The notes below the pieces were generated by a model. The model did not search any database, was not told the DNA's origin, and saw only the letters and a list, made by a program, of their open reading frames with translations. The position numbers were made by a program, and so were the translations under genes. Source: Sphingobium fontiphilum (lineage in GTDB: Bacteria > Pseudomonadota > Alphaproteobacteria > Sphingomonadales > Sphingomonadaceae). Taken from it: a stretch of 64,000 nucleotides of DNA. Location of the stretch: contig NZ_JACIEB010000006.1 in the NCBI RefSeq assembly GCF_014196635.1, positions 62,001 through 126,000 of the forward strand. Direction: 5' to 3'. Position 1 is the first letter of the stretch; the number at the start of each line of letters is the position of its first letter. Below, piece by piece: positions 53,466 to 64,000 of this stretch.

Positions 53466-53542
53466 GGCGGAGTAGCTCAGCTGGTTAGAGCAGCGGAATC
53501 ATAATCCGCGTGTCGGGGGTTCAAGTCCCTCCTCCGCTACCA
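53466..53542 (+). tRNA. tRNA-Met (anticodon CAT)
   Basis: A 77-nt tRNA with CCA encoded. The acceptor stem is GGCGGAG / CTCCGCT, the D arm GCTCAGCTGGTTAGAGC, the anticodon stem-loop GCGGA-ATCATAA-TCCGC and the T arm GGGGGTTCAAGTCCCTC. The sequence resembles elongator tRNA-Met; a lysidine-type tRNA-Ile(CAT) is not excluded. It is the likely insertion site of the integrase-bearing element next to it. Confidence 0.95.
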
Positions 53543-53732: not shown

Positions 53733-55058
53733 ATGGCTTTGAAAGAACTTGAGGTCAAATACGCCACCAAGCGGCAGCGCCCCTACAAGCTGTCCGATGG
53801 AGAAGGCCTGCACCTGCTCGTCCAGCCGAACGGATCGAAGCTCTGGCGCCTGAAATACCGCTTCGACGGCAAGGAAAAACTGCTGAGCTTCGGCAAATAT
53901 CCGACCGTCACGCTGGCGATCGCCCGCGAGAAGCGGACCGAAGCCAAGCGGCTGCTCGATCAGGGTGAGGACCCCGCCGAGGCCAGGAAGCGGGCGAAGA
54001 AGCAGAGGGCCGCGCTCAAGCTGTTCGAAGAGATTGCGCGGGCCTGGCACGCCAATCGTATTGAAGGGCTGGACTCGGCCCATGCCCTGCGCGTCATCAA
54101 CCGGATGGAGCGCGACGTCTTTCCGGTCATCGGGAAGCGTCCGATCACGGAAATCGACCCGCCCGAGATTCTCGAGATGATCCGCGCGGTCGAAGCGCGC
54201 GGCGCCCTCGATATCGCCCGTCGCCTCAAGCAGAACGTCAGCCAGATCTATCGCTTCGCGATCGCGAGCGGCTGGGCGACCATCGATCCGACGCTCGGCC
54301 TCAACGATGCGCTCAAGCCCAAGCCGCCCGTCAGGCACATGGCGCGCGTGCCGCTCGCGGAGTTTCCGAAGCTGGTGCGAGCGATCTTCGCCTATGACGG
54401 CGAGGACACGCCGCGCCGCCGCGAGATCACCCGTGACGCGCTGCTGTTCACCTTGCTCACATGGGTCCGAACCAGCGAAACCCGCTTCGCGGCCAGGGAC
54501 GAGTTCGAGGATCTCTATGGACCGAACCCGCTATGGCGTCTGTCGCCGGAGCGCATGAAGATGGAACGTGAGCATCTTGTTCCGCTGTCCCGCCAGGCCG
54601 CAATGATCGTTCAGCGCCGCTTGCAGGCGACGAACGATGCGTTCCTCTTTCCCGGAGCCAAGCCTGGAAAGTCTATTTCCGAGAACACCATGATCTATGC
54701 CTGTTATCGGATGGGGTATCTCCATCGGCAGACGGTACATGGGTTTAGGGGGCTCGGCTCGACCTGGGCGAACGAAGCCGAACGCTACAAGCCGGATTGG
54801 ATCGAGATGGCGCTCGCTCACGAGGACGAGGATGAGGTGCGCGGCGCTTACAACAGTGCGCTCTATCTCACACCGCGAAGGCGGATGCTCCAAGACTGGG
54901 CCGACGTGATCGACGCGGCAACCGCAGTGTCGAATGTCGAGAAGAATCCTATCGAGTTCTCACAATTCATGCGCTGTTCCGCTCCCATCCAGCACCTGCC
55001 ACCAAGCGACCAGAGACAGCCGTATTGGCAACGCCCCCTTCGGGCGGCTTCGCGATGA
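53733..55058 (+). CDS. tyrosine-type integrase, P4 family (DUF4102 N-terminus)
   Basis: A 441-residue site-specific recombinase. The N-terminal arm-binding domain is clear (MALKELEVKYATKRQRPYKL, then LSDGEGLHLLVQPNGSKLW). The catalytic domain shows arginine in TWVRTSETRF, H-x-x-R in VHGFRGLGSTWANE, LAHEDED and the tyrosine in RGAYNSALY. The upstream in-frame codons from 53550 are not family-like. Its start is about 190 bp after the 3' end of tRNA-Met, the normal place for a P4 integrase of a genomic island. Confidence 0.93.
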   Translation: MALKELEVKYATKRQRPYKLSDGEGLHLLVQPNGSKLWRLKYRFDGKEKLLSFGKYPTVTLAIAREKRTEAKRLLDQGEDPAEARKRAKKQRAALKLFEEIARAWHANRIEGLDSAHALRVINRMERDVFPVIGKRPITEIDPPEILEMIRAVEARGALDIARRLKQNVSQIYRFAIASGWATIDPTLGLNDALKPKPPVRHMARVPLAEFPKLVRAIFAYDGEDTPRRREITRDALLFTLLTWVRTSETRFAARDEFEDLYGPNPLWRLSPERMKMEREHLVPLSRQAAMIVQRRLQATNDAFLFPGAKPGKSISENTMIYACYRMGYLHRQTVHGFRGLGSTWANEAERYKPDWIEMALAHEDEDEVRGAYNSALYLTPRRRMLQDWADVIDAATAVSNVEKNPIEFSQFMRCSAPIQHLPPSDQRQPYWQRPLRAASR

Positions 55059-55496: not shown

Positions 55497-58105
55497 ATGG
55501 TCACAGCCTTTAGGACAAATTTGCTTTGTGCCACCGCGCTATCGATCGCGTGTGCGCTTGCAGTGCCGGCACATGCCCAGGACGCTGCATCGCAGGGCGA
55601 AAAGCCCGAGGCGCAGGAAGGTGGCCTTGAGACAATCGTCGTCACGGCGCAGAAGCGCGAACAGAATTTGCAGGATGTTCCAGCCGCCGTTTCCGCCATA
55701 GGCGGCGAGACGCTGCGCACGCGCGGCATCACGGAGACCTCAGACTTGATGGGCGCGATCCCCAGCCTGCAAGTCACCACTCCCTATGGTCGCACCCAAC
55801 CGAATTTCTCGCTGCGCGGGATTTCAGTGGCGAACGAATTTTCCGCCTCCACTGCGTCGCCGGTTGGCGTCTATGTCGATGAAGTCTATCAGAGCTTCCG
55901 GGCGAGCCATGGCCTGCAACTCTATGACATCGACCGGGTCGAGGTACTGCGCGGACCGCAAGGAACACTCTACGGTCGCAACACCACGGGTGGCGCGATC
56001 AGCTTCTTCACGCGCAAGCCGGATCTGGGAGAGGCCAATGGCTATCTGACCGCCGGCTATGCCAATTACGACACTTTCACGGTGCAGGGCGCCGCTGAAG
56101 CGACGCTGGTTCCCGACATCTTGGGCGTCCGCGTCGCCGGTACTTTTGCAAAAGGGGATGGTTGGCAGCGCAATGTACTGCCTGGGAATGAGCGCGACCT
56201 AGGGACCACCGATACGATCGGCGGTCGCATCTCGATCCGCTTCCGGCCCGATCCCGATCTCGACATCAATTTGAAGCTCTATGCCGCGAAGGACGATCCA
56301 TGGGGCACCGCGCCCTATGCAGGTGGTCAACTCGCGGGCGGGCAGGATGCGCTCGGCTATTCGCGTTACGATCCGCAACCTTTCCTAGGCGGGCGGTTGC
56401 TGCGTGACAATGAGGTCGCAGTTGATCGGGTAGGTAAGAACATCAGCAAGTCGAAAGGGATAGCCCTCAACATCAAATGGGATGTCAGCGACCAATTCTC
56501 CGTCACCTCGATTACCGGCTACGACACCGGCGACTATATCAACAATCCTGATGATTGCGATGGCGGCCCAGCCGATCTCTGCTCGATCGGCCTCACGTCG
56601 ACGAGCAAGAATTTCAACCAGGACCTGCGTTTCAGCTATTCGAACGACCGCCTCGATATCATTGCCGGCCTTTATTATGGCAGGGACAAGGTCAAGACGG
56701 TCAACTACCCGGACTTTTTCGGGGCGCTGAGGCCGCTGCTGCTTGGCGCCGGTCTTCCGGGCAGCTACAATAACGCCGCAATCGGAACGCCCGACGCGAT
56801 CCGCTATATCCCAGCCTTTGCCGCCAATCCGGCGTTGGGGCCTGGCGATGCCGGATTCTGCGACGCGATCGAGATCAATCCCAACGGCTTCCTTGATGCA
56901 CGCTCGCTGATTGCACTCCAGACCGACATCGCGATCAATAATACGGGCAATGGCGGCATGGGGGGTAGCTTTTCGGCGGGCTGCGCCGGGGCAGGCGCGC
57001 CTCCGTTCACCCCGATCCTCGGCGAACAGCGTTTTGACGTGTCGCGCCCCTCGAAGGCGATCTACGGCGACGTAACCTGGAAAGCGACCGAGCGGCTGAC
57101 CGTGGCGGTGGGTGCACGCTACACCCAGGATAAGGTCAATTACCTTAACGGCAGCACTTTCCTCTATGCGCTCGACGGTACGACGCCGGTTGTCAACCTG
57201 ATCCCCTACAGCAATCCATACAACCCCAATCTCGCGCCGCTTGAGCAGCGCGAAAAGGCAAACAGGCTAACCGGCCGTATCAATGTCAGCTATGAGTTCG
57301 CCGATGATATCATGGGCTATCTCCAGTACAGTCGCGGTTACCGCAGCGGCAGCTTCAACGGGCTTGCCTATCAGGGCGTCAATCAAGTCTATTATATCCA
57401 GCCTGAAAAGGTGAATGCATATGAGGCGGGGCTCAAAACCCGGCTGTTCGATCGCCGCGTCCAACTTAACCTCGCGGGCTTCTACTACGAGTATTCGAAT
57501 CACCAAGTAACGCAGGTGGTCGCCGCTACAACCTTCACGCGCAGCGCCAATGGTCGCCTGTTCGGTGGCGAGGCCGAACTCGCCTGGCAGGTGGCCGATA
57601 CGTTGCGTTTCGATGCTTCGCTGGGCTATCTCAACAGCAAGTACAAAGGCAATGTGATCGATCCGGCAAACCCGGCCAGCCCGACATTGAACGTCAACGG
57701 CAATCCCTTCCCGAACGCGCCGGAGGTTACGTTCCAGGCCGGATTCGACTGGGATATGATCGATGACGGCACCAACAAGCTGACCTTGCGCGGTGATGCG
57801 TCCTACATGGGCAAGTACTATTTTGATCCGTTCAAGAATTATGGGCAGACACCGTGCGATACACCCCCAGCGGGATCGAACATAACGCTCGCGGGTAAGG
57901 CGATTACATGCGCAAATCCGGGCTACTGGCTCGCCAATGCGCGATTAACCTATGCGCACGACAATATGTCGGTTAGCTTGTGGGCGAAGAATCTGTTCGA
58001 CAAATATTACTACACCTACGGCCTCAACATGGACGTGTTCGGCTACGATTATCTGAACCGCGGCATGCCGCGCACTTATGGCGTCGAAGCGACAGTCAAG
58101 TTCTG
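55497..58105 (+). CDS. TonB-dependent receptor
   Basis: An 868-residue outer-membrane receptor. The signal peptide (cleavage near PAHAQ) precedes a TonB-box-like ETIVVTAQKREQNLQ, the plug domain (VPAAVSAIGG, RGPQGTLYGRNTTGGAI) and a 22-strand barrel that ends with a C-terminal phenylalanine (VEATVKF). The ATG at MVTAFRTNLL has GGAGG six bases upstream; earlier in-frame codons lack one. It is followed by a strong terminator, so it may be transcribed separately from the enzymes. In position it corresponds to pegB of the PEG operon. Confidence 0.94.
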
Positions 58106-58118
58106 ATCGCTGCTGCGA

Positions 58119-58163
58119 CGGGGGCGGCGGGCATCCTCTCCCGCCCGCTGCCCCCGATTTTTT
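58119..58163 (+). terminator. rho-independent terminator after the TonB receptor
   Basis: A 13-bp stem with one G-U pair (CGGGGGCGGCGGG / CCCGCTGCCCCCG), a 12-nt loop and the run ATTTTTT. It lies 12 bp after the receptor stop and before the next operon. Confidence 0.85.
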
Positions 58164-58195
58164 CGACCTGACTTTCAGACCGAGGAGCATCCATA

Positions 58196-58336
58196 ATGCG
58201 TTCCACCGGCAACGGTCCCTCATTCATCGGCACGGCGTACAGAATCGAGCGCGCTGTGATCACTGAGATCGGCGCAGCTGAAAGCACCGCCCAGGCGAGC
58301 AGCGCCGAGCGGCCAGCGCGCCTCCGGACGATTTAA
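58196..58336 (+). CDS. 46-residue small ORF coupled to aldehyde dehydrogenase
   Basis: The ORF starts MRSTGNGPSFIGTAYRIERA and ends with a TAA one base before the GTG of the dehydrogenase. It has a strong Shine-Dalgarno (GAGGAG, eight bases before ATG), whereas the dehydrogenase has none. Translation of this ORF therefore probably carries ribosomes into the dehydrogenase. The peptide is not recognised; it may be only a coupling leader. Confidence 0.55.
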   Translation: MRSTGNGPSFIGTAYRIERAVITEIGAAESTAQASSAERPARLRTI

Positions 58337-58337
58337 C

Positions 58338-59762
58338 GTGGATGCGTCTCGGAACAGAACTGAGCTGGAACGAATTTTCGCGACCCAACGCGAAGGGACG
58401 CGTGAGCAGGTTTCGCGCAGCTACGAAGAACGCATGGACCTGCTCGGGCGCCTTGGCCGGATATTTGAGCAGCACAGAGACGAATTGGTCGATGCCGTTG
58501 CCGCCGATTTCGGCATTCGATCCCGCTACGAGACTATCCTGCTCGACCTGATGCTTGGCATATCGGAAATTAAATTTGCGCGCCGCAATCTGAAGACGTG
58601 GCTGAGGCCGCGGCGGGTGAAGACTGACATCTTCGGCCTTCCCGGTTCATCGCGCCTGGTCCCCCAGCCCCTAGGTGTGGTGGGCGTTCTCGGCACGTGG
58701 AACTATCCGCTCGGCACCATATTCGTTGGCGCGGCCGGTGCATTGGCGGCCGGCAACCGCGTGATCGCAAAGCCGAGCGAAGTTTCCGCCAACGCCGCCG
58801 AAGCCAGCGAGCGGCTTGTGCGCCGGTATTTCGCCGAAGAGGAATTCGCGATTGTCCAGGGCGGGCCCGACATGGCACAGGCGATGACGGCCCTACCTTT
58901 CGACCATATTCTCTTCACCGGTTCACCCGCGGTTGGCCGCAAAGTCTATGAAGCGGCGGCTGCCAACCTTACACCTGTTACTCTGGAACTTGGCGGCAAA
59001 TGCCCTGCCATCGTGGGCAAGGGTGCATCGCTTGCACAAGTCTGTGAAAGCTTAGTGTTCGGCAAGCTGCTCAACGCCGGCCAGACCTGCATCGCCGCTG
59101 ACTATGCCTTCGTCCATGTCGATCAGATGGAAAGCTTCGTCGCCGCACTCCGCGCTCAGGTTGCCAAATGCTACCCCAACGCGGCAAGCAACCCCGATTT
59201 CACCAGTATCATCAATGACCGACAGTTCGCGCGGCTCCAAGGTTTGCTCGATGATGCCGAAGCCAAGGGCGCGACGGTGCTCAACCTCTCGGACAACGGC
59301 GATGGAACGCTTCCTGAACGGCATCGGATCGTGCCGTTGGCGGTTCTCGACGTTACCGATGACATGGCGATGATGCAGGAGGAGATTTTCGGACCGATCC
59401 TGCCGATCATGCCATATCGCTCCGAAGACGAGCTCATTCGCTACGTAAACCGGCATGAGCGCCCGCTGGCGCTCTATTATTTTGGCGACGAAAGTGAGGA
59501 ACGGCGCAAGATCATTTCCGAAACGCACGCTGGCGGCGTGACTCTCAACGGCACGGTCATGCACGTCTTCCAGCGCCGGCTGCCTTTCGGTGGCATCGGA
59601 CAGAGCGGCATCGGTGCCTATACCGGCGTCGCCAGTTTCGAGCGCTTCACTCATTACAAGCCGGTGTTCTCTCAGCCGAAACTCAGCCTGCTTGGTCAAC
59701 TTCTGCCACCCTATTCGAGCAAGACCGAAGGACTACTCAACATCTTCGAAAAGATCCTCTGA
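58338..59762 (+). CDS. aldehyde dehydrogenase, coniferyl-aldehyde-dehydrogenase type
   Basis: A 474-residue NAD(P) enzyme that oxidises an aldehyde to the acid. Key motifs: PQPLGVVGVLGTWNYPLGT, the coenzyme site LFTGSPAVGRKV, the catalytic glutamate in VTLELGGKCP and cysteine in NAGQTCIAADY, and EEIFGPILPI. The C-terminal HVFQRRLPFGGIGQSGIGAY and the membrane-affine tail (LLGQLLPPYSSKTEGLLNIF) mark the class-3-like branch acting on aryl or long aliphatic aldehydes. The start is GTG, likely coupled to the small ORF. It corresponds to pegC in position. Confidence 0.92.
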   Translation: MDASRNRTELERIFATQREGTREQVSRSYEERMDLLGRLGRIFEQHRDELVDAVAADFGIRSRYETILLDLMLGISEIKFARRNLKTWLRPRRVKTDIFGLPGSSRLVPQPLGVVGVLGTWNYPLGTIFVGAAGALAAGNRVIAKPSEVSANAAEASERLVRRYFAEEEFAIVQGGPDMAQAMTALPFDHILFTGSPAVGRKVYEAAAANLTPVTLELGGKCPAIVGKGASLAQVCESLVFGKLLNAGQTCIAADYAFVHVDQMESFVAALRAQVAKCYPNAASNPDFTSIINDRQFARLQGLLDDAEAKGATVLNLSDNGDGTLPERHRIVPLAVLDVTDDMAMMQEEIFGPILPIMPYRSEDELIRYVNRHERPLALYYFGDESEERRKIISETHAGGVTLNGTVMHVFQRRLPFGGIGQSGIGAYTGVASFERFTHYKPVFSQPKLSLLGQLLPPYSSKTEGLLNIFEKIL

Positions 59763-59838
59763 CGTGGCTGCGGCGGTTGATGCTGGCATGTTGCATGACG
59801 CCGGGTCGCCAGCATGGGTCGAATGACAAGGGAAGCAA

Positions 59839-61473
59839 ATGGCTGACTATGTAATTATTGGAGGTGGGTCGTCGGGCGGCGTTATCGCCAGCCGGTTGTC
59901 CGAGGACCCCGATGTCACCGTTTGCCTGCTCGAGGCAGGCGGCCCAGGCACCTCGCCGCTTGTGTCCACGCCCGGCGCTTTTGCGGCGCTGATCCAAGAC
60001 TATCGGATCAATACGCTCAACTGGCGGTTCAACACCGACCCTTCAAAGGCGCTCAACGACCGCCGCCTCTACAATCCGCGCGGGAAGATGCTGGGTGGAT
60101 CGAGCGGTATGAACGGGATGGTCTATATCCGCGGCGACCGGTCGGATTTCGACCACTGGGCCGAACTCGGCAACGACGGCTGGGGTTACAACGATGTCCT
60201 GCCCTATTTCCGCAAGGCTGAGAATAATGAGCGCGGTGAGGATGAGTTTCACGGCTCGTCGGGACCGCTTCACGTATCCAACGGCAAGCGCGAATTCGAT
60301 GTCTATGATGCTTTCATCGAGGCGGCGACTGGACTGGACCATCAAGCCAATCCGGACTTCAATGGTGCCAGCCAGGAAGGTGTCGGCATCTATCAGTTTA
60401 CCGTGAAGGACGGGAAGCGCGCCAGCGTGAAGGCGTGTTACCTTGATCCGGTGATGGGCAGGCGCGGCAACCTCCGCGTCGAAGTACATGCCCGCGTCCA
60501 TCGTATCAGGTTTGAGGGCAACCGCGCGGTGGCAGTCGAGTATTCCCAGGACGGGCAGTTGAAGACGATCCCGTGCGAAAAGGAAGTCATTGTCAGCGGC
60601 GGCGCCTATAATTCGCCCCAACTGTTGATGCTTTCCGGTATCGGACCGCGTGATGAGTTGGAGAAGCATGGAATCGAAGTGATTCATGATATTCCCGGTG
60701 TCGGCCAGAATCTTCACGACCATCCTGACCTGATGCTGAGCTACCAGTCGAAGAAGCGGCTCGGGATCGCACTCAATGTCGTTGGCGCGCTCAAGACCGT
60801 GCGAGACCTATTCCAGTATCTCACGCAAAGGAAAAGCTGGCTGGCATCGCCGCCCACGGCTGCAGGCGGTTTCTTGCGATCCGCGCCGGGGCAGAACCGG
60901 GCGGACTGCCAGGTCCATGTCGTGCCGCTCGCCTATCGCGACCATGCGCGCGACTACAAGCTGATGACGAAATGGGGCTATACGATCATTCTCAATATTG
61001 GGCGCCCAAAGAGCCGCGGCTGGGTTGCCTTACATGACTCAAACCCCGAATCCGATCCCAAGATAGACCTCAATCTCTTGAGTCATCCCGACGACCTCAA
61101 GACGTTGCGCAATGCCTTCCGTGTCGTGCAGGAGATCCTGCATTCGGATCGCATGAAGGCGATGATGAAACGGCCTCTCTATCCTGACCGCTACCTTGAA
61201 ACTGATGAAGAGATCGACGCCTATATCCGGGCAGAAGCCAATCATGCTTATCATCCGGTGGGAACATGCAAGATGGGCACCGACGAGATGGCGGTGGTCG
61301 ACAACCGCCTGCGCGTTCACGGCCTCGCAAATATCCGCGTGGCCGATGCCTCGATCATGCCATCAGTCGTCAACGGCAACACCAATGCAACCTGCATCAT
61401 GATCGGCGAGAAAGCCGCCGACATGATCCGGCACGATAATATGAGCAGCAAGAATAGCATCGCAGAATATTGA
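59839..61473 (+). CDS. GMC-family alcohol dehydrogenase (FAD)
   Basis: A 544-residue flavoprotein that oxidises a primary alcohol to an aldehyde. The FAD motif is YVIIGGGSSGGVIASRLSE, then KMLGGSSGMNGMVYIRG, the GMC signature 2 GGAYNSPQLLMLSGIGP, and the catalytic His/Asn in HAYHPVGTCKMG and VVNGNTNATCIMI. AAGGGAA precedes the ATG. It matches PegA, the PEG dehydrogenase, in family and in order; choline dehydrogenase or AlkJ-like alkanol dehydrogenase are alternatives. Confidence 0.93.
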   Translation: MADYVIIGGGSSGGVIASRLSEDPDVTVCLLEAGGPGTSPLVSTPGAFAALIQDYRINTLNWRFNTDPSKALNDRRLYNPRGKMLGGSSGMNGMVYIRGDRSDFDHWAELGNDGWGYNDVLPYFRKAENNERGEDEFHGSSGPLHVSNGKREFDVYDAFIEAATGLDHQANPDFNGASQEGVGIYQFTVKDGKRASVKACYLDPVMGRRGNLRVEVHARVHRIRFEGNRAVAVEYSQDGQLKTIPCEKEVIVSGGAYNSPQLLMLSGIGPRDELEKHGIEVIHDIPGVGQNLHDHPDLMLSYQSKKRLGIALNVVGALKTVRDLFQYLTQRKSWLASPPTAAGGFLRSAPGQNRADCQVHVVPLAYRDHARDYKLMTKWGYTIILNIGRPKSRGWVALHDSNPESDPKIDLNLLSHPDDLKTLRNAFRVVQEILHSDRMKAMMKRPLYPDRYLETDEEIDAYIRAEANHAYHPVGTCKMGTDEMAVVDNRLRVHGLANIRVADASIMPSVVNGNTNATCIMIGEKAADMIRHDNMSSKNSIAEY

Positions 61474-61602
61474 ATTGGACGATTGGATCAATGCTGCAGA
61501 CACAGATGCTTACGAAAAGAAGTCCGGAGAGGCCTATCGCATGTCAGTTTATTATGTGTCGACTGCGCCATTGTGGGCGAGCGCCTTAGAGGAGCGCGGC
61601 TG

Positions 61603-63147
61603 ATGGACGTCCGTACGCAAATACGTCGCGCCGCACGTTATTTCGCCCAGCAAGAGGCTCTCGTTCACGGCCACAGGCGGTTGACTTTCTCGGAAGCCTG
61701 GTTGCGCGGCGTGAAGCTCGCAAATGCTCTTGCGGAGTGCGGCCTTCAACCGGGTGACCGGATTGCTACGCTGGAGAAGAACTCCATCGAGGCCGCCGAC
61801 ATCATACTGGCGGCTGCCATTGGAAACTATACGCGTGTTCCTCTCTATGCGCGCAACCGATGTGAAGCGCACGCCCATATGATCGCGAGTACCGGATCTC
61901 GGTTGGCGCTGGTCGATGAGGCATTGGCTTCGGAGTTGGCGGGGCTGGATGCCCAAGCTCCGACGCTTGAGCGGATCATTATCCGCGATCACAACTATGA
62001 GAATTGGTTGGCGACAGCCTCGGACCGGGATCCTGATCCCGTCGTCGCGCCGGAGGACTATTGTGTCATCCGCCACACCGGCGGCACGACGGGCAAACCC
62101 AAGGGCGTTGCCTATCGGCACCGTTCATGGATGACGATCTCCGCCGCATTTTTCAGCATCGGCCCCCAAGTGGCCCCAGGGGATGCCATTCTGCATGTCG
62201 GCCCGTTGTCCCATGCATCGGGCTTCCTGTTCGTGCCGGCCTGGTATTGCGGCGCCCGCAACGTGATGATGGACGGCTTCGATCCAGCGTCCTTTCTTGA
62301 CACTCTCGAGCAGGAACGGATCAGCCATGCCTTTGTAGCCCCCACCATGCTCAATGCCATAGTGCATCACGACGGGGCATATGGCCGCCACTTTCCGAAT
62401 TTGAAGTTTCTGCTGAGTGCTTCAGCGCCGATCTCCGAGCCGACGCTTCGCAAGTCGTGCCAGATATTCGGGAATCATGTTCTTCATTCGGGCTATGGAC
62501 AGACCGAAATCCTGCCCATCGCGTCTATGGGGCCCAACGAGTGGTTCGGCGAATTTGAAGGTTCTGCCCCAATTCGGGCGGTCGGACGTCCCATGAGTGG
62601 CGCCGATATCGAAATCCGTAACGAGGACGGAAAGGTGCTGGGACCAAACGAGCCCGGCGAGATCGTCGCACGGTTCGAAAATGGCCAGATGGAGGAATTC
62701 TGGAACGATCCGGAGGAAACCGCCCGGCGCATGGAAGATGGCTGGGTCAAAACCGGCGATGTCGGCATGATCGACACAAACGGATTTTTGTATCTGCTCG
62801 ATCGCAACAACGACATGATCGTGTCAGGCGGCTTCAATATCTATCCCACCGAAATCGAAAACGTAATTGCCGACCATCCCGGTGTACTCGAGGTCGCGGT
62901 CTTTGGCGTGCCCCATGAAAAATGGGGTGAAACGCCGCTTGCAATGGTGCGTGTCAAGCCCGGAGCACAAATCACGGAGACCGAGATAATAGATTTGGTG
63001 CGCCAGCGTCTGGGCTCCGCAAAAAAGCCAAGCAAGGTCGTTTTTACCGCCGAGCCACTGCCGTTGAGCAATGTCGGAAAGGTGCTTCGTTCAAAGCTTC
63101 GAGAGCCCTATTGGGCGGGCCAGGACCGGCGCATTTCGGGGGCATGA
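61603..63147 (+). CDS. acyl-CoA ligase (AMP-binding family)
   Basis: A 514-residue enzyme that activates a carboxylic acid to its CoA ester through an acyl-adenylate. Motifs in order: HTGGTTGKPKGVAYRH, HSGYGQTEI, TGDVGMID, LLDRNNDMIVSGGFNIYPTE and the catalytic lysine in PLSNVGKVLRSKL. The ATG at MDVRTQIRRA has GGAG eight bases upstream; earlier codons in the frame are not family-like. It follows the GMC gene after a 129-bp gap and corresponds to pegE. Confidence 0.94.
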   Translation: MDVRTQIRRAARYFAQQEALVHGHRRLTFSEAWLRGVKLANALAECGLQPGDRIATLEKNSIEAADIILAAAIGNYTRVPLYARNRCEAHAHMIASTGSRLALVDEALASELAGLDAQAPTLERIIIRDHNYENWLATASDRDPDPVVAPEDYCVIRHTGGTTGKPKGVAYRHRSWMTISAAFFSIGPQVAPGDAILHVGPLSHASGFLFVPAWYCGARNVMMDGFDPASFLDTLEQERISHAFVAPTMLNAIVHHDGAYGRHFPNLKFLLSASAPISEPTLRKSCQIFGNHVLHSGYGQTEILPIASMGPNEWFGEFEGSAPIRAVGRPMSGADIEIRNEDGKVLGPNEPGEIVARFENGQMEEFWNDPEETARRMEDGWVKTGDVGMIDTNGFLYLLDRNNDMIVSGGFNIYPTEIENVIADHPGVLEVAVFGVPHEKWGETPLAMVRVKPGAQITETEIIDLVRQRLGSAKKPSKVVFTAEPLPLSNVGKVLRSKLREPYWAGQDRRISGA

Positions 63148-63213
63148 CCGACGCAGCCATCCTAGCCACATCCTCTATTCCGGTGACCGCCTGCCGGCGC
63201 GCGGGAGACTGCA

Positions 63214-64000
63214 ATGGACTATGAATACATCCTGGTTGAGCAACGCGGCCCAGCGCTTTGGGTGACCCTCAACCGGCCGGCAGCGTTGAACAGTCTGTCG
63301 TTGGCTTTGGCCGAGGAACTCGCCGCAGCGATCGAGGCAGCGGAAGCAGATGCGACGGTGCGCGCTTGCATTCTTACCGGCGCCGGACGGGCGTTTTGCG
63401 CTGGCGCGGATCTGCTCGCAATTGGCGATGGAACAGGCGGACAAACTCTCGCCGAACGCTTAAATCTGTTTCTGCCGCCGCTCGGTCAGGCTTTTAACAG
63501 GATCGAGACGTCGCGCCTTCCGATAATTGCGGCGGTCAACGGCCTTACGCTCGCCGGCGGCTTGGAACTGGTGTTGTGCTGTGATCTCGTCATTGCCGCG
63601 CACCCGGCCAGATTTGGCGACGCCCATGCAAATTACGGCCTGTTGCCCGGCGGTGGAGGGTCGGTTCGACTCCCTAGGAAGATCGGCGAAGCGCGTGCGA
63701 AACATCTGATGATGACCGGCGGGACCATCTCGGCTGCCGAGATGAAGGAAGCCGGACTCGTGACCCAACTGGTTGCTCCCGAGGATCTCATTGCGGCAGC
63801 GCAAGCGCTGGTAGAATCTCTTGCAGAAAAGAGCCGGCCAGGGCTCGCCTACATGAAGCAGCTAGTCCGCGCTGCGCAGGATAGCTCGCTCGAAGTCGGG
63901 CTGCGTCAGGAACTCGAAACCATGGCTGCTTACGCCTTGTCCAACGACATTGTCGAAGGACTGGCGGCATTCCGGGAGAAGCGGAAGCCCGATTTTTCCG
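63214..64000 (+). CDS. enoyl-CoA hydratase/isomerase family protein (3' end outside window)
   Basis: The crotonase-fold protein is complete except for a few C-terminal residues (262 codons present). It shows TLNRPAALNSLS, the oxyanion motif AFCAGADLLA, NGLTLAGGLELVLCCD and ARFGDAHANYGLLPGGGGSV, with the ending EGLAAFREKRKPDFS near the expected C-terminus. GGGAG lies six bases before the ATG. It could hydrate the enoyl-CoA made after the ligase, placing beta-oxidation downstream of the oxidation steps. Confidence 0.93.
   Translation, partial: MDYEYILVEQRGPALWVTLNRPAALNSLSLALAEELAAAIEAAEADATVRACILTGAGRAFCAGADLLAIGDGTGGQTLAERLNLFLPPLGQAFNRIETSRLPIIAAVNGLTLAGGLELVLCCDLVIAAHPARFGDAHANYGLLPGGGGSVRLPRKIGEARAKHLMMTGGTISAAEMKEAGLVTQLVAPEDLIAAAQALVESLAEKSRPGLAYMKQLVRAAQDSSLEVGLRQELETMAAYALSNDIVEGLAAFREKRKPDFS

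Follow-up and report, generated by a model that had tools for sequence, protein, structure and literature searches.

The window analysed here is a stretch of 64,000 nucleotides from Sphingobium fontiphilum, corresponding to C6:62001-126000, where C6 denotes contig NZ_JACIEB010000006.1; coordinates without a prefix are window-based. The right end of the window holds the first genes of a catabolic cluster, which is carried by an element integrated at a tRNA-Met gene and continues past the window. The features of the element are as follows.

53466..53542, + strand: tRNA-Met (CAT), the integration site (ARAGORN).
53526..53542, + strand: attL, the 17-bp 3' end of the tRNA; its second copy, attR, lies past the window at C6:165994-166010.
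53733..55058, + strand: tyrosine integrase with an arm-type DNA-binding domain (Pfam; start codon assigned).
55497..58106, + strand: TBDT1, a TonB-dependent receptor (Pfam); codons 366 and 845 change recurrently.
58196..58336, + strand: ORF (open reading frame) of 46 amino acids, possibly no gene; its counterpart on plasmid pYT40 has 47 amino acids, is annotated as hypothetical and has no Pfam match.
58338..59762, + strand: aldehyde dehydrogenase, ALDH (Pfam); the best solved relative is steroid aldehyde dehydrogenase 9nxl.
59839..61473, + strand: GMC alcohol dehydrogenase (Pfam); recurrent codons 122, 167, 301 and 409, with 364 and 510 less certain.
61603..63147, + strand: AMP-dependent acyl-CoA ligase, ACS (Pfam).
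63214..64008, + strand: crotonase-type enoyl-CoA hydratase, ECH; its final 8 bases lie outside the window and it ends at C6:126008.
C6:126040-127290, past the window: SCP2-like thiolase, THL.
C6:127328-128473, past the window: acyl-CoA dehydrogenase, ACAD.
C6:128579-129481, past the window: short-chain dehydrogenase/reductase (SDR) of the type of multifunctional enzyme 2 (MFE-2).
C6:129679-131826 (L004:14679-16826), past the window: TBDT2, a second TonB receptor, interrupted.
C6:131991-133040, - strand, past the window: LysR regulator.
C6:133073-134218, past the window: CaiB-family alpha-methylacyl-CoA racemase.
Beyond the racemase gene up to attR: LuxR, LuxI, PhyH, S26 peptidase (TraF-like), ParB, relaxase, TraG and trb-type genes.

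All five cluster genes of the window are open, run in the same direction and lie far above the Pfam cut-offs. Reading frames and Pfam agree on the order given by an earlier note on this DNA, namely TonB receptor, ALDH, GMC enzyme, ligase and hydratase. Six further cluster genes, together with the conjugation genes, lie past the window end, and the G+C content drops from 60-70% to about 57-61%. The same note spoke of an integrase-flanked island; the tRNA-Met gene is indeed followed by the tyrosine integrase, and both att repeats are found.

The last 17 bases of the tRNA are repeated at C6:165994-166010, forming attR. At the right border, identity ends at C6:166009/166010 in all four of the other genomes (4/4), with differing DNA beyond in each; at the left border, identity starts at or inside the tRNA in the copies reaching that far. 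From attL through attR the element measures 50,485 bp. Profile scans, which covered part of its ORFs, yield a conjugation set composed of a DUF3363 relaxase, a TraG-type coupling protein, an S26 peptidase, a secretion ATPase, and the TrbE, TrbL, VirB8, CagX/TrbG and TrbI families. The nuclease domain of the relaxase scores 24.1 against a cut-off of 24.6, and the DUF3363 part scores 486. Given the att repeats at both ends and the border mapping, the 50.5-kb element is, judged by its anatomy, an integrative conjugative element (ICE) with the catabolic cluster as cargo. Known catabolic ICEs with trb-type conjugation genes likewise have tRNA integration, an integrase, a relaxase, a coupling protein and a type IV secretion system; unlike them, the present ICE carries LuxI and a cargo of unassigned substrate.

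The start of the ICE LuxI gene (L005:958-1572) matches the cloning primer of NovI_Nsub2 from Novosphingobium subterraneum exactly (L005:958), and NovI_Nsub2 and locus L061 share one contig, JRVC01000011.1. According to the available portion of PMC5012321, NovI_Nsub2 makes C8, C10 and C12 acyl-homoserine lactones and is 100% identical to a Sphingopyxis H050 protein, and novR-novI-phyH is a recurrent quorum-sensing arrangement in sphingomonads; the word "integrative" is absent from that portion of the text. PhyH beside LuxI was considered as part of a phytanate route and set aside, since this arrangement recurs. Quorum sensing could control the transfer of the ICE.

A scan of GTDB genome contigs gives at least 79 loci, of which at least 23 carry a GMC gene of 99-100% identity. 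These near-identical loci occur in Sphingopyxis, Novosphingobium, Sphingobium, Sphingomonas, Erythrobacter, Aurantiacibacter, Sandaracinobacteroides, Hankyongella and other Sphingomonadaceae. Further ones occur in metagenome-assembled genomes (MAGs) labelled Bradyrhizobium, Azonexus and Dechloromonas, which are possibly misbinned, and the cluster is also situated on plasmid pYT40 of Porphyrobacter sp. YT40. A GMC gene at this identity is present in 11 of 80 genomes from the genus of Sphingopyxis sp. H050, 5 of 195 from that of N. subterraneum, 1 of 60 from that of Erythrobacter HI0063, and 3 of 396 order-wide genomes, the source genome included. Such spread between genera would lend indirect support to transfer of the ICE. 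Sphingopyxis H050 originates from drinking water, as stated in the available part of PMC6771000. The corresponding part of PMC4741004 describes a 27.6-kb region of S. granuli TFA that is 97% like Erythrobacter litoralis HTCC2594. The possibility of an unreported alcohol pathway, raised by the earlier note, is consistent with a search of the open-access literature, in which no description of this cluster or element was found.

The element exists in two forms. The short form is that of the window; the long form contains TetR, amidohydrolase, TonB receptor, cyclase and BKACE genes between the integrase and TBDT1. The amidohydrolase is present in 6 of the 18 carrier genomes searched (E <= 1e-60), all of the long form, and at the same threshold is not found in one long-form copy (L075) and 11 other carriers. 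On pYT40, the long-form module, which includes a TonB receptor and a TetR gene of its own, occupies L036:9558-15116, and close to this copy are a predicted tet(G) efflux gene (L036:408-1580) and IS6100 copies. The Sphingopyxis-group genome G172 contains two catabolic clusters (L169 and L170), 17.5 kb apart and in the same orientation, the second of which was read to the SDR gene. GMC genes of 69-70% identity, in other gene settings or alone, are also observed in sphingomonads (L037, L044, L065-L068), for example on pBAR2 of Sphingomonas bisphenolicum and in Sphingobium sp. TCM1.

The differences between the copies are concentrated in the first receptor and the GMC enzyme. In the five complete ICE copies, the 31.2-kb backbone beyond the cluster is identical. 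The four complete copies G152, G105, G104 and G106 differ from the window copy at 16, 12, 15 and 18 positions, respectively, and of these 61 differences, TBDT1 accounts for 25, GMC for 14, TBDT2 and the spacers between cluster genes for 10 apiece, and the ligase and LysR for 1 each, with 0 in the backbone. Across 16 short-form copies, 31 of the 55 changes in coding sequence fall in TBDT1 and GMC, which make up 25% of that sequence (p=7e-7), and five codons are changed more than once, where 0.26 coincidences are expected. The nonsynonymous/synonymous (N/S) counts in the short form are 12/1 for GMC, 12/6 for TBDT1, 3/3 for ACS, 3/0 for ECH, 2/0 for LysR, 1/1 for the thiolase, 0/1 for ALDH, 3/1 for the integrase and 4/2 for TBDT2; ACAD, SDR and the racemase gene, the last only partly covered in most copies, have zero changes.

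A wider set of 26 copies comprises 20 of the 23 loci listed, pYT40, G152, G678, the two G172 copies and the window copy. L078, which has many indels and was aligned only, and the fragments L082 and L086 were left out; L048, L052, L064, G678 and G172b stop short, and full coverage of the racemase gene is available for 4 of the 26. Within this set, the N/S ratio is 36/11 for TBDT1 and GMC together versus 19/19 for ALDH, ACS, ECH, THL, ACAD, SDR, LysR and racemase (p=0.013). When the integrase and TBDT2 are joined to the others, the comparison becomes 36/11 versus 42/60 (p=8e-5). TBDT1 is stop-free in all 26 copies, although L052, a MAG locus, is partial with three gaps.

Furthermore, the changes return to the same positions. 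On a tree built from sites outside TBDT1, GMC and TBDT2, at least three changes are needed at 4 sites of TBDT1 (codons 366 and 845), 7 of GMC (codons 122, 167, 301 twice, 364, 409 and 510) and 2 intergenic sites, and at no site in any other gene of the stretch analysed, from which the integrase and the greater part of the racemase gene are excluded. One of the intergenic sites, L004:2469 (window 55469), is located 28 bases ahead of the TBDT1 start. The tree is weakly resolved, hence tree-free tests were added, in which 19 sites are polymorphic in both forms against 0.24 expected (18 without the MAGs): 5 in TBDT1, 6 in GMC, 3 beside TBDT1 and 5 in ACS, ECH and THL. The three beside TBDT1, L004:2469, 5188 and 5198 (window 55469, 58188 and 58198), of which 58198 lies inside the 46-residue ORF, may be regulatory.

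Different codons lead to the same residue. GMC 409 is Met, or Ile via ATA, ATT and ATC; GMC 301 occurs naturally as Ser, Val or Ile; and TBDT1 845 is Met, Ile, or Leu via CTC, CTG and TTG. In a GMC alignment of 32 sequences, from which seven had been dropped beforehand, Pro122 and Ile409 are invariant; yet Ser122 is present in 17 of 26 copies and Met409 in 15 of 25. In the GMC model, with a mean pLDDT (predicted local distance difference test) of 92.5, residues 301-302, 382 and 409 are situated on strands of a sheet that we take to be the one backing the substrate pocket in GMC enzymes. Codon 510 lies four residues ahead of Asn514, presumably the catalytic Asn. The nearest solved folds of this model are alcohol oxidases, fatty acid photodecarboxylase and choline oxidase.

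Recombination alone is unlikely to account for this pattern. When L053, YT40 (L036) and L060, the three possible recombinants, are removed, 13 both-form sites persist (TBDT1 5, GMC 5, beside TBDT1 3) against 0.09 expected, and TBDT1 366 and 845 together with GMC 122, 167, 301 and 409 still need at least three changes. The different codons at GMC 409 and TBDT1 845 argue likewise, as do the fixed differences between short and long forms (2682, 7366, 7790, 7906), which lie among the recurrent sites. A diversity-generating element is not supported, since the changes are not limited to adenines. The pattern seems to point to recent, repeated adaptation.

The cluster genes also indicate a chemistry. 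The CaiB protein matches alpha-methylacyl-CoA racemase structures (MCR/AMACR) at 1.2e-99 versus 1.2e-32 for the best CoA-transferase, which rules out the latter assignment, and it is identical to MCR at His126, Asp156 and Glu241, which we take, with these numbers, to be the catalytic residues. By sequence, it is an alpha-methylacyl-CoA racemase. The CaiB protein of a Sulfitobacter cluster behaves likewise, with 4e-99 versus 3e-41 for the next relative. The SDR is closest to the MFE-2 dehydrogenase domains 2et6 (5.5e-155) and 1gz6 (1.7e-110), and the best otherwise-named entry, 3qlj, reaches 5e-45. The thiolase matches SCP2-thiolase type 1 at 1e-65. Peroxisomes use a trio of racemase, MFE-2 dehydrogenase and SCP2 thiolase on 2-methyl-branched acids. 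Compared with peroxisomal branched-chain beta-oxidation (AMACR, MFE-2 and SCPx thiolase), the racemase and the MFE-2-type domain are clearly alike and the SCP2-like thiolase less so. The bacterial cluster differs in adding alcohol and aldehyde oxidation and a separate crotonase hydratase, and in having an acyl-CoA dehydrogenase where the peroxisomal route uses an oxidase.

With GMC enzyme, ALDH and ligase upstream of the racemase, MFE-2 and SCP2 trio, the simplest reading is that an alpha-branched alcohol is converted to its CoA ester and propionyl-CoA is removed. In such a route, TBDT1 would import the substrate, or a precursor of it, through the outer membrane, a TonB receptor being used because the substrate is large or scarce. 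The FAD-dependent GMC enzyme would oxidise the primary alcohol, ALDH would produce the acid and the AMP-ligase the acyl-CoA, and the racemase would set the configuration of the alpha-branched carbon. Subsequently, acyl-CoA dehydrogenase, hydratase, MFE-2-type dehydrogenase and SCP2-like thiolase would perform one turn of beta-oxidation, releasing propionyl-CoA or some other 2-branched unit, much as branched acids are handled in peroxisomes. This inferred order of reactions makes an alpha-branched primary alcohol, probably bulky and hydrophobic, the most likely substrate. The earlier note had proposed an alcohol-aldehyde-acid-acyl-CoA route followed by beta-oxidation, and the thiolase, acyl-CoA dehydrogenase and SDR genes past the window uphold it.

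Overall, we assign a probability of about 0.5 to an ICE-borne route for an alpha-branched primary alcohol, with recent spread and later adaptation of the receptor and the GMC enzyme. The ICE would have spread very recently among sphingomonads; receptor and GMC enzyme would then have been altered repeatedly at the same residues, and TBDT2 repeatedly lost, as uptake and the first step adapted to one or more substrates, possibly man-made. More tentatively, one ICE may have swept many sphingomonad species before any backbone substitution, as seen in the complete copies, followed by parallel optimisation at a few residues of the receptor and the first enzyme toward a recent, possibly man-made alpha-branched alcohol.

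Several observations weigh against this interpretation. The matches of ALDH, GMC enzyme, ligase and ECH fall under the NCBIfam cut-offs. Crotonases usually give 3S stereochemistry and MFE-2 dehydrogenases 3R, so the crotonase does not match the MFE-2-type dehydrogenase; no fused or adjacent hotdog (3R) hydratase is found, and the crotonase is the only hydratase found in the cluster. Acetyl-CoA acetyltransferase 7yvy follows close behind the best thiolase match (2e-63), which makes the thiolase leg of the peroxisomal likeness weak. No P450, AlkB or esterase is present among the ORFs scanned, and nothing in the cluster makes the alcohol, so the substrate must arrive as an alcohol or come from host genes. 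In Sulfitobacter and Phaeobacter, the SDRs are 29-30% and the ligases 25% identical, and the MFE-2 feature is not conserved there. With regard to the changes, p is 0.047 when GMC on its own is set against the eight genes, and the short-form ratio of TBDT1 is unremarkable by itself. Alleles were scored against the window copy, the counts are of sites or alleles and not of independent events, and the low divergence makes every count small. L053, YT40 and L060 share ACS, ECH and THL alleles across forms, L053 pairing with YT40 or L060 at the five both-form sites in these genes, which suggests recombined tracts between copies, one of which may reach GMC codons 409 and 510; without these three, GMC 364 and 510 fall below three steps.

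A side-chain pathway, acting on a sterol-like compound (a steroid C26 alcohol) or an aryl-alkyl compound (2-methyl-3-arylpropanol, as in synthetic fragrances), is possible, though rather unlikely. In animals, MFE-2, racemase and SCP2-thiolase act jointly on sterol side chains. The nearest solved relative of ALDH, the steroid aldehyde dehydrogenase 9nxl, hints at a bulky substrate without amounting to proof, and EchA19 is the nearest NCBIfam model of ECH. However, these are family-level matches, EchA19 reaching 225 bits against a cut-off of 400; no ring-degradation genes are recognised among the cluster ORFs, and the fragrance idea comes from chemistry alone.

An alkHJK-type pathway, whose substrates would be linear alkanols or 2-ethyl-branched ones, such as the 2-ethylhexanol released from di(2-ethylhexyl) phthalate (DEHP), a plasticiser, is unlikely. 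ALDH, GMC enzyme and acyl-CoA ligase also stand together in two alkB operons, in the alkHJK-like modules of S. fribergensis pSfKp5.2 and Pseudomonas sp. 7-41, with identities of 44% for GMC, 37-38% for ALDH, nearer than PegC of the polyethylene glycol (PEG) operon, and 25-27% for the ligase. 2-Ethylhexanoate is alpha-branched, one carrier goes by the name Sphingobium sp. DEHP117, and a 68% GMC occurs in Pelagimonas phthalicica among the matches listed. A Mycolicibacterium degrades DEHP via 2-ethylhexanol, according to the available part of PMC10134610. Nevertheless, a small alcohol should require no TonB receptor, a strain name proves nothing, and no phthalate ester hydrolase is recognised among the cluster genes. 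Unlike the alkHJK-like modules, the present cluster has a racemase, an SCP2-like thiolase and an SDR; its ORFs include no alkane hydroxylase (AlkB), rubredoxin or OmpW-type porin, and without the first two the cluster is not an alk (alkBFGHJKL) operon.

The recurrent changes could also result from escape, under attack by phages or bacteriocins exploiting TonB receptors, instead of adaptation to a substrate, which we consider doubtful. TBDT2 has a stop early in the gene in the source genome and is broken in 16 of 23 usable copies by at least 9 distinct lesions, some of them in MAGs or drafts and possibly errors; intact copies exist. In addition, TBDT1 366, 674/676 and 845/846 lie within or next to long loops in a model of low confidence (mean pLDDT 55), which gives rough topology at most. 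Escape leaves the parallel GMC changes at 122, 301 and 409 unexplained, and this parallel change argues for substrate over phage as the cause of selection. Both may act together.

Nearer than the peg operon is an uncharacterised Roseobacteraceae cluster on plasmids of Sulfitobacter alexandrii and Phaeobacter sp. G2. It shares GMC (68-69%), ACAD (59-63%) and thiolase (59-60%), and at lower levels racemase (48-49%), ALDH (46%) and ECH (40-44%). For Sulfitobacter, the identities are GMC 69%, ACAD 63%, thiolase 60%, racemase 49%, ALDH 46%, ECH 40%, SDR 29% and ligase 25%, the ALDH being annotated there as 'coniferyl aldehyde dehydrogenase'. It differs in having a LIV-type ABC importer and TetR, with no TonB receptor among the annotated neighbours.

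The earlier note had matched the first four genes to the peg operon of sphingomonads, whose order, pegB-C-D-A-E with pegR, is taken from that note and general knowledge. In the S. macrogoltabida EY-1 peg locus, picked by gene order and bearing no peg label, TonB receptor, ALDH, MFS permease, GMC enzyme and ligase follow in peg order. EY-1 degrades PEG and polypropylene glycol (PMC4669395), and the peg operon is reported from mobile DNA in sphingomonads; the type strain NBRC 15033 is reported to have lost pegA (PMC4675939). Genome G187 has nearly the same gene set as EY-1. Two peg-like loci are present in each of these genomes (L173, L174, L177, L178), with an AraC-type gene before the second GMC-ligase pair. 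Plasmid 203N was rejected as a source of pegA, since its three GMC genes lack a peg-like arrangement.

The match in families and relative order holds, but it is not specific, because ALDH and GMC are neighbours in two alkB operons also. Identity to the EY-1 proteins is 43% for PegA, 31% for PegC, 26% for PegE and 26% for PegB, the last figure covering the barrel only (the EY-1 receptor ORF is a barrel; the plug part in G187 gives 35% over 245 amino acids). The alkane-operon proteins are as similar as the Peg proteins or more so, except one ligase. ALDH is 46% identical to that of Sulfitobacter and 37-38% to the alkane operons versus 31% to PegC, and GMC 69% and 44%, respectively, versus 43% to PegA. 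Thus, protein comparison does not support the Peg label, and close kinship fails likewise, the Sulfitobacter cluster being nearer. The absence of pegD (permease) and pegR (AraC) was correctly noted: neither is among the cluster ORFs, and the nearest regulator is the LysR gene. Reading past the window end for these genes and for beta-oxidation genes gives the latter and not the former. Unlike the peg operon of Sphingopyxis, the present cluster also has a beta-oxidation set and a racemase. By general chemistry, alkoxyacetates (PEG acids) need no racemase, SDR or thiolase. Hence, a variant PEG operon acting on polyethers, despite sharing the relative order of TonB receptor, ALDH, GMC enzyme and ligase with EY-1 (L174), is very improbable given these identities, the missing MFS permease and AraC gene, which rule out Peg membership, and the surplus enzymes; an alkyl or aryl-alkyl alcohol fits better, as the earlier note held. 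From these comparisons, the Peg likeness lies in the gene families and their order and does not reflect close descent, and order-based matching to the peg operon is shown to mislead.

The copies provide natural variants of enzyme and receptor for comparison, at GMC 122, 301 and 409 and TBDT1 366 and 845, and the carriers include N. subterraneum DSM 12447. If the proposed alpha-branched alcohol route is correct, a widespread pollutant or natural product would be degraded through a pathway for which no name was found, and the adaptive residues could be read from the copies.

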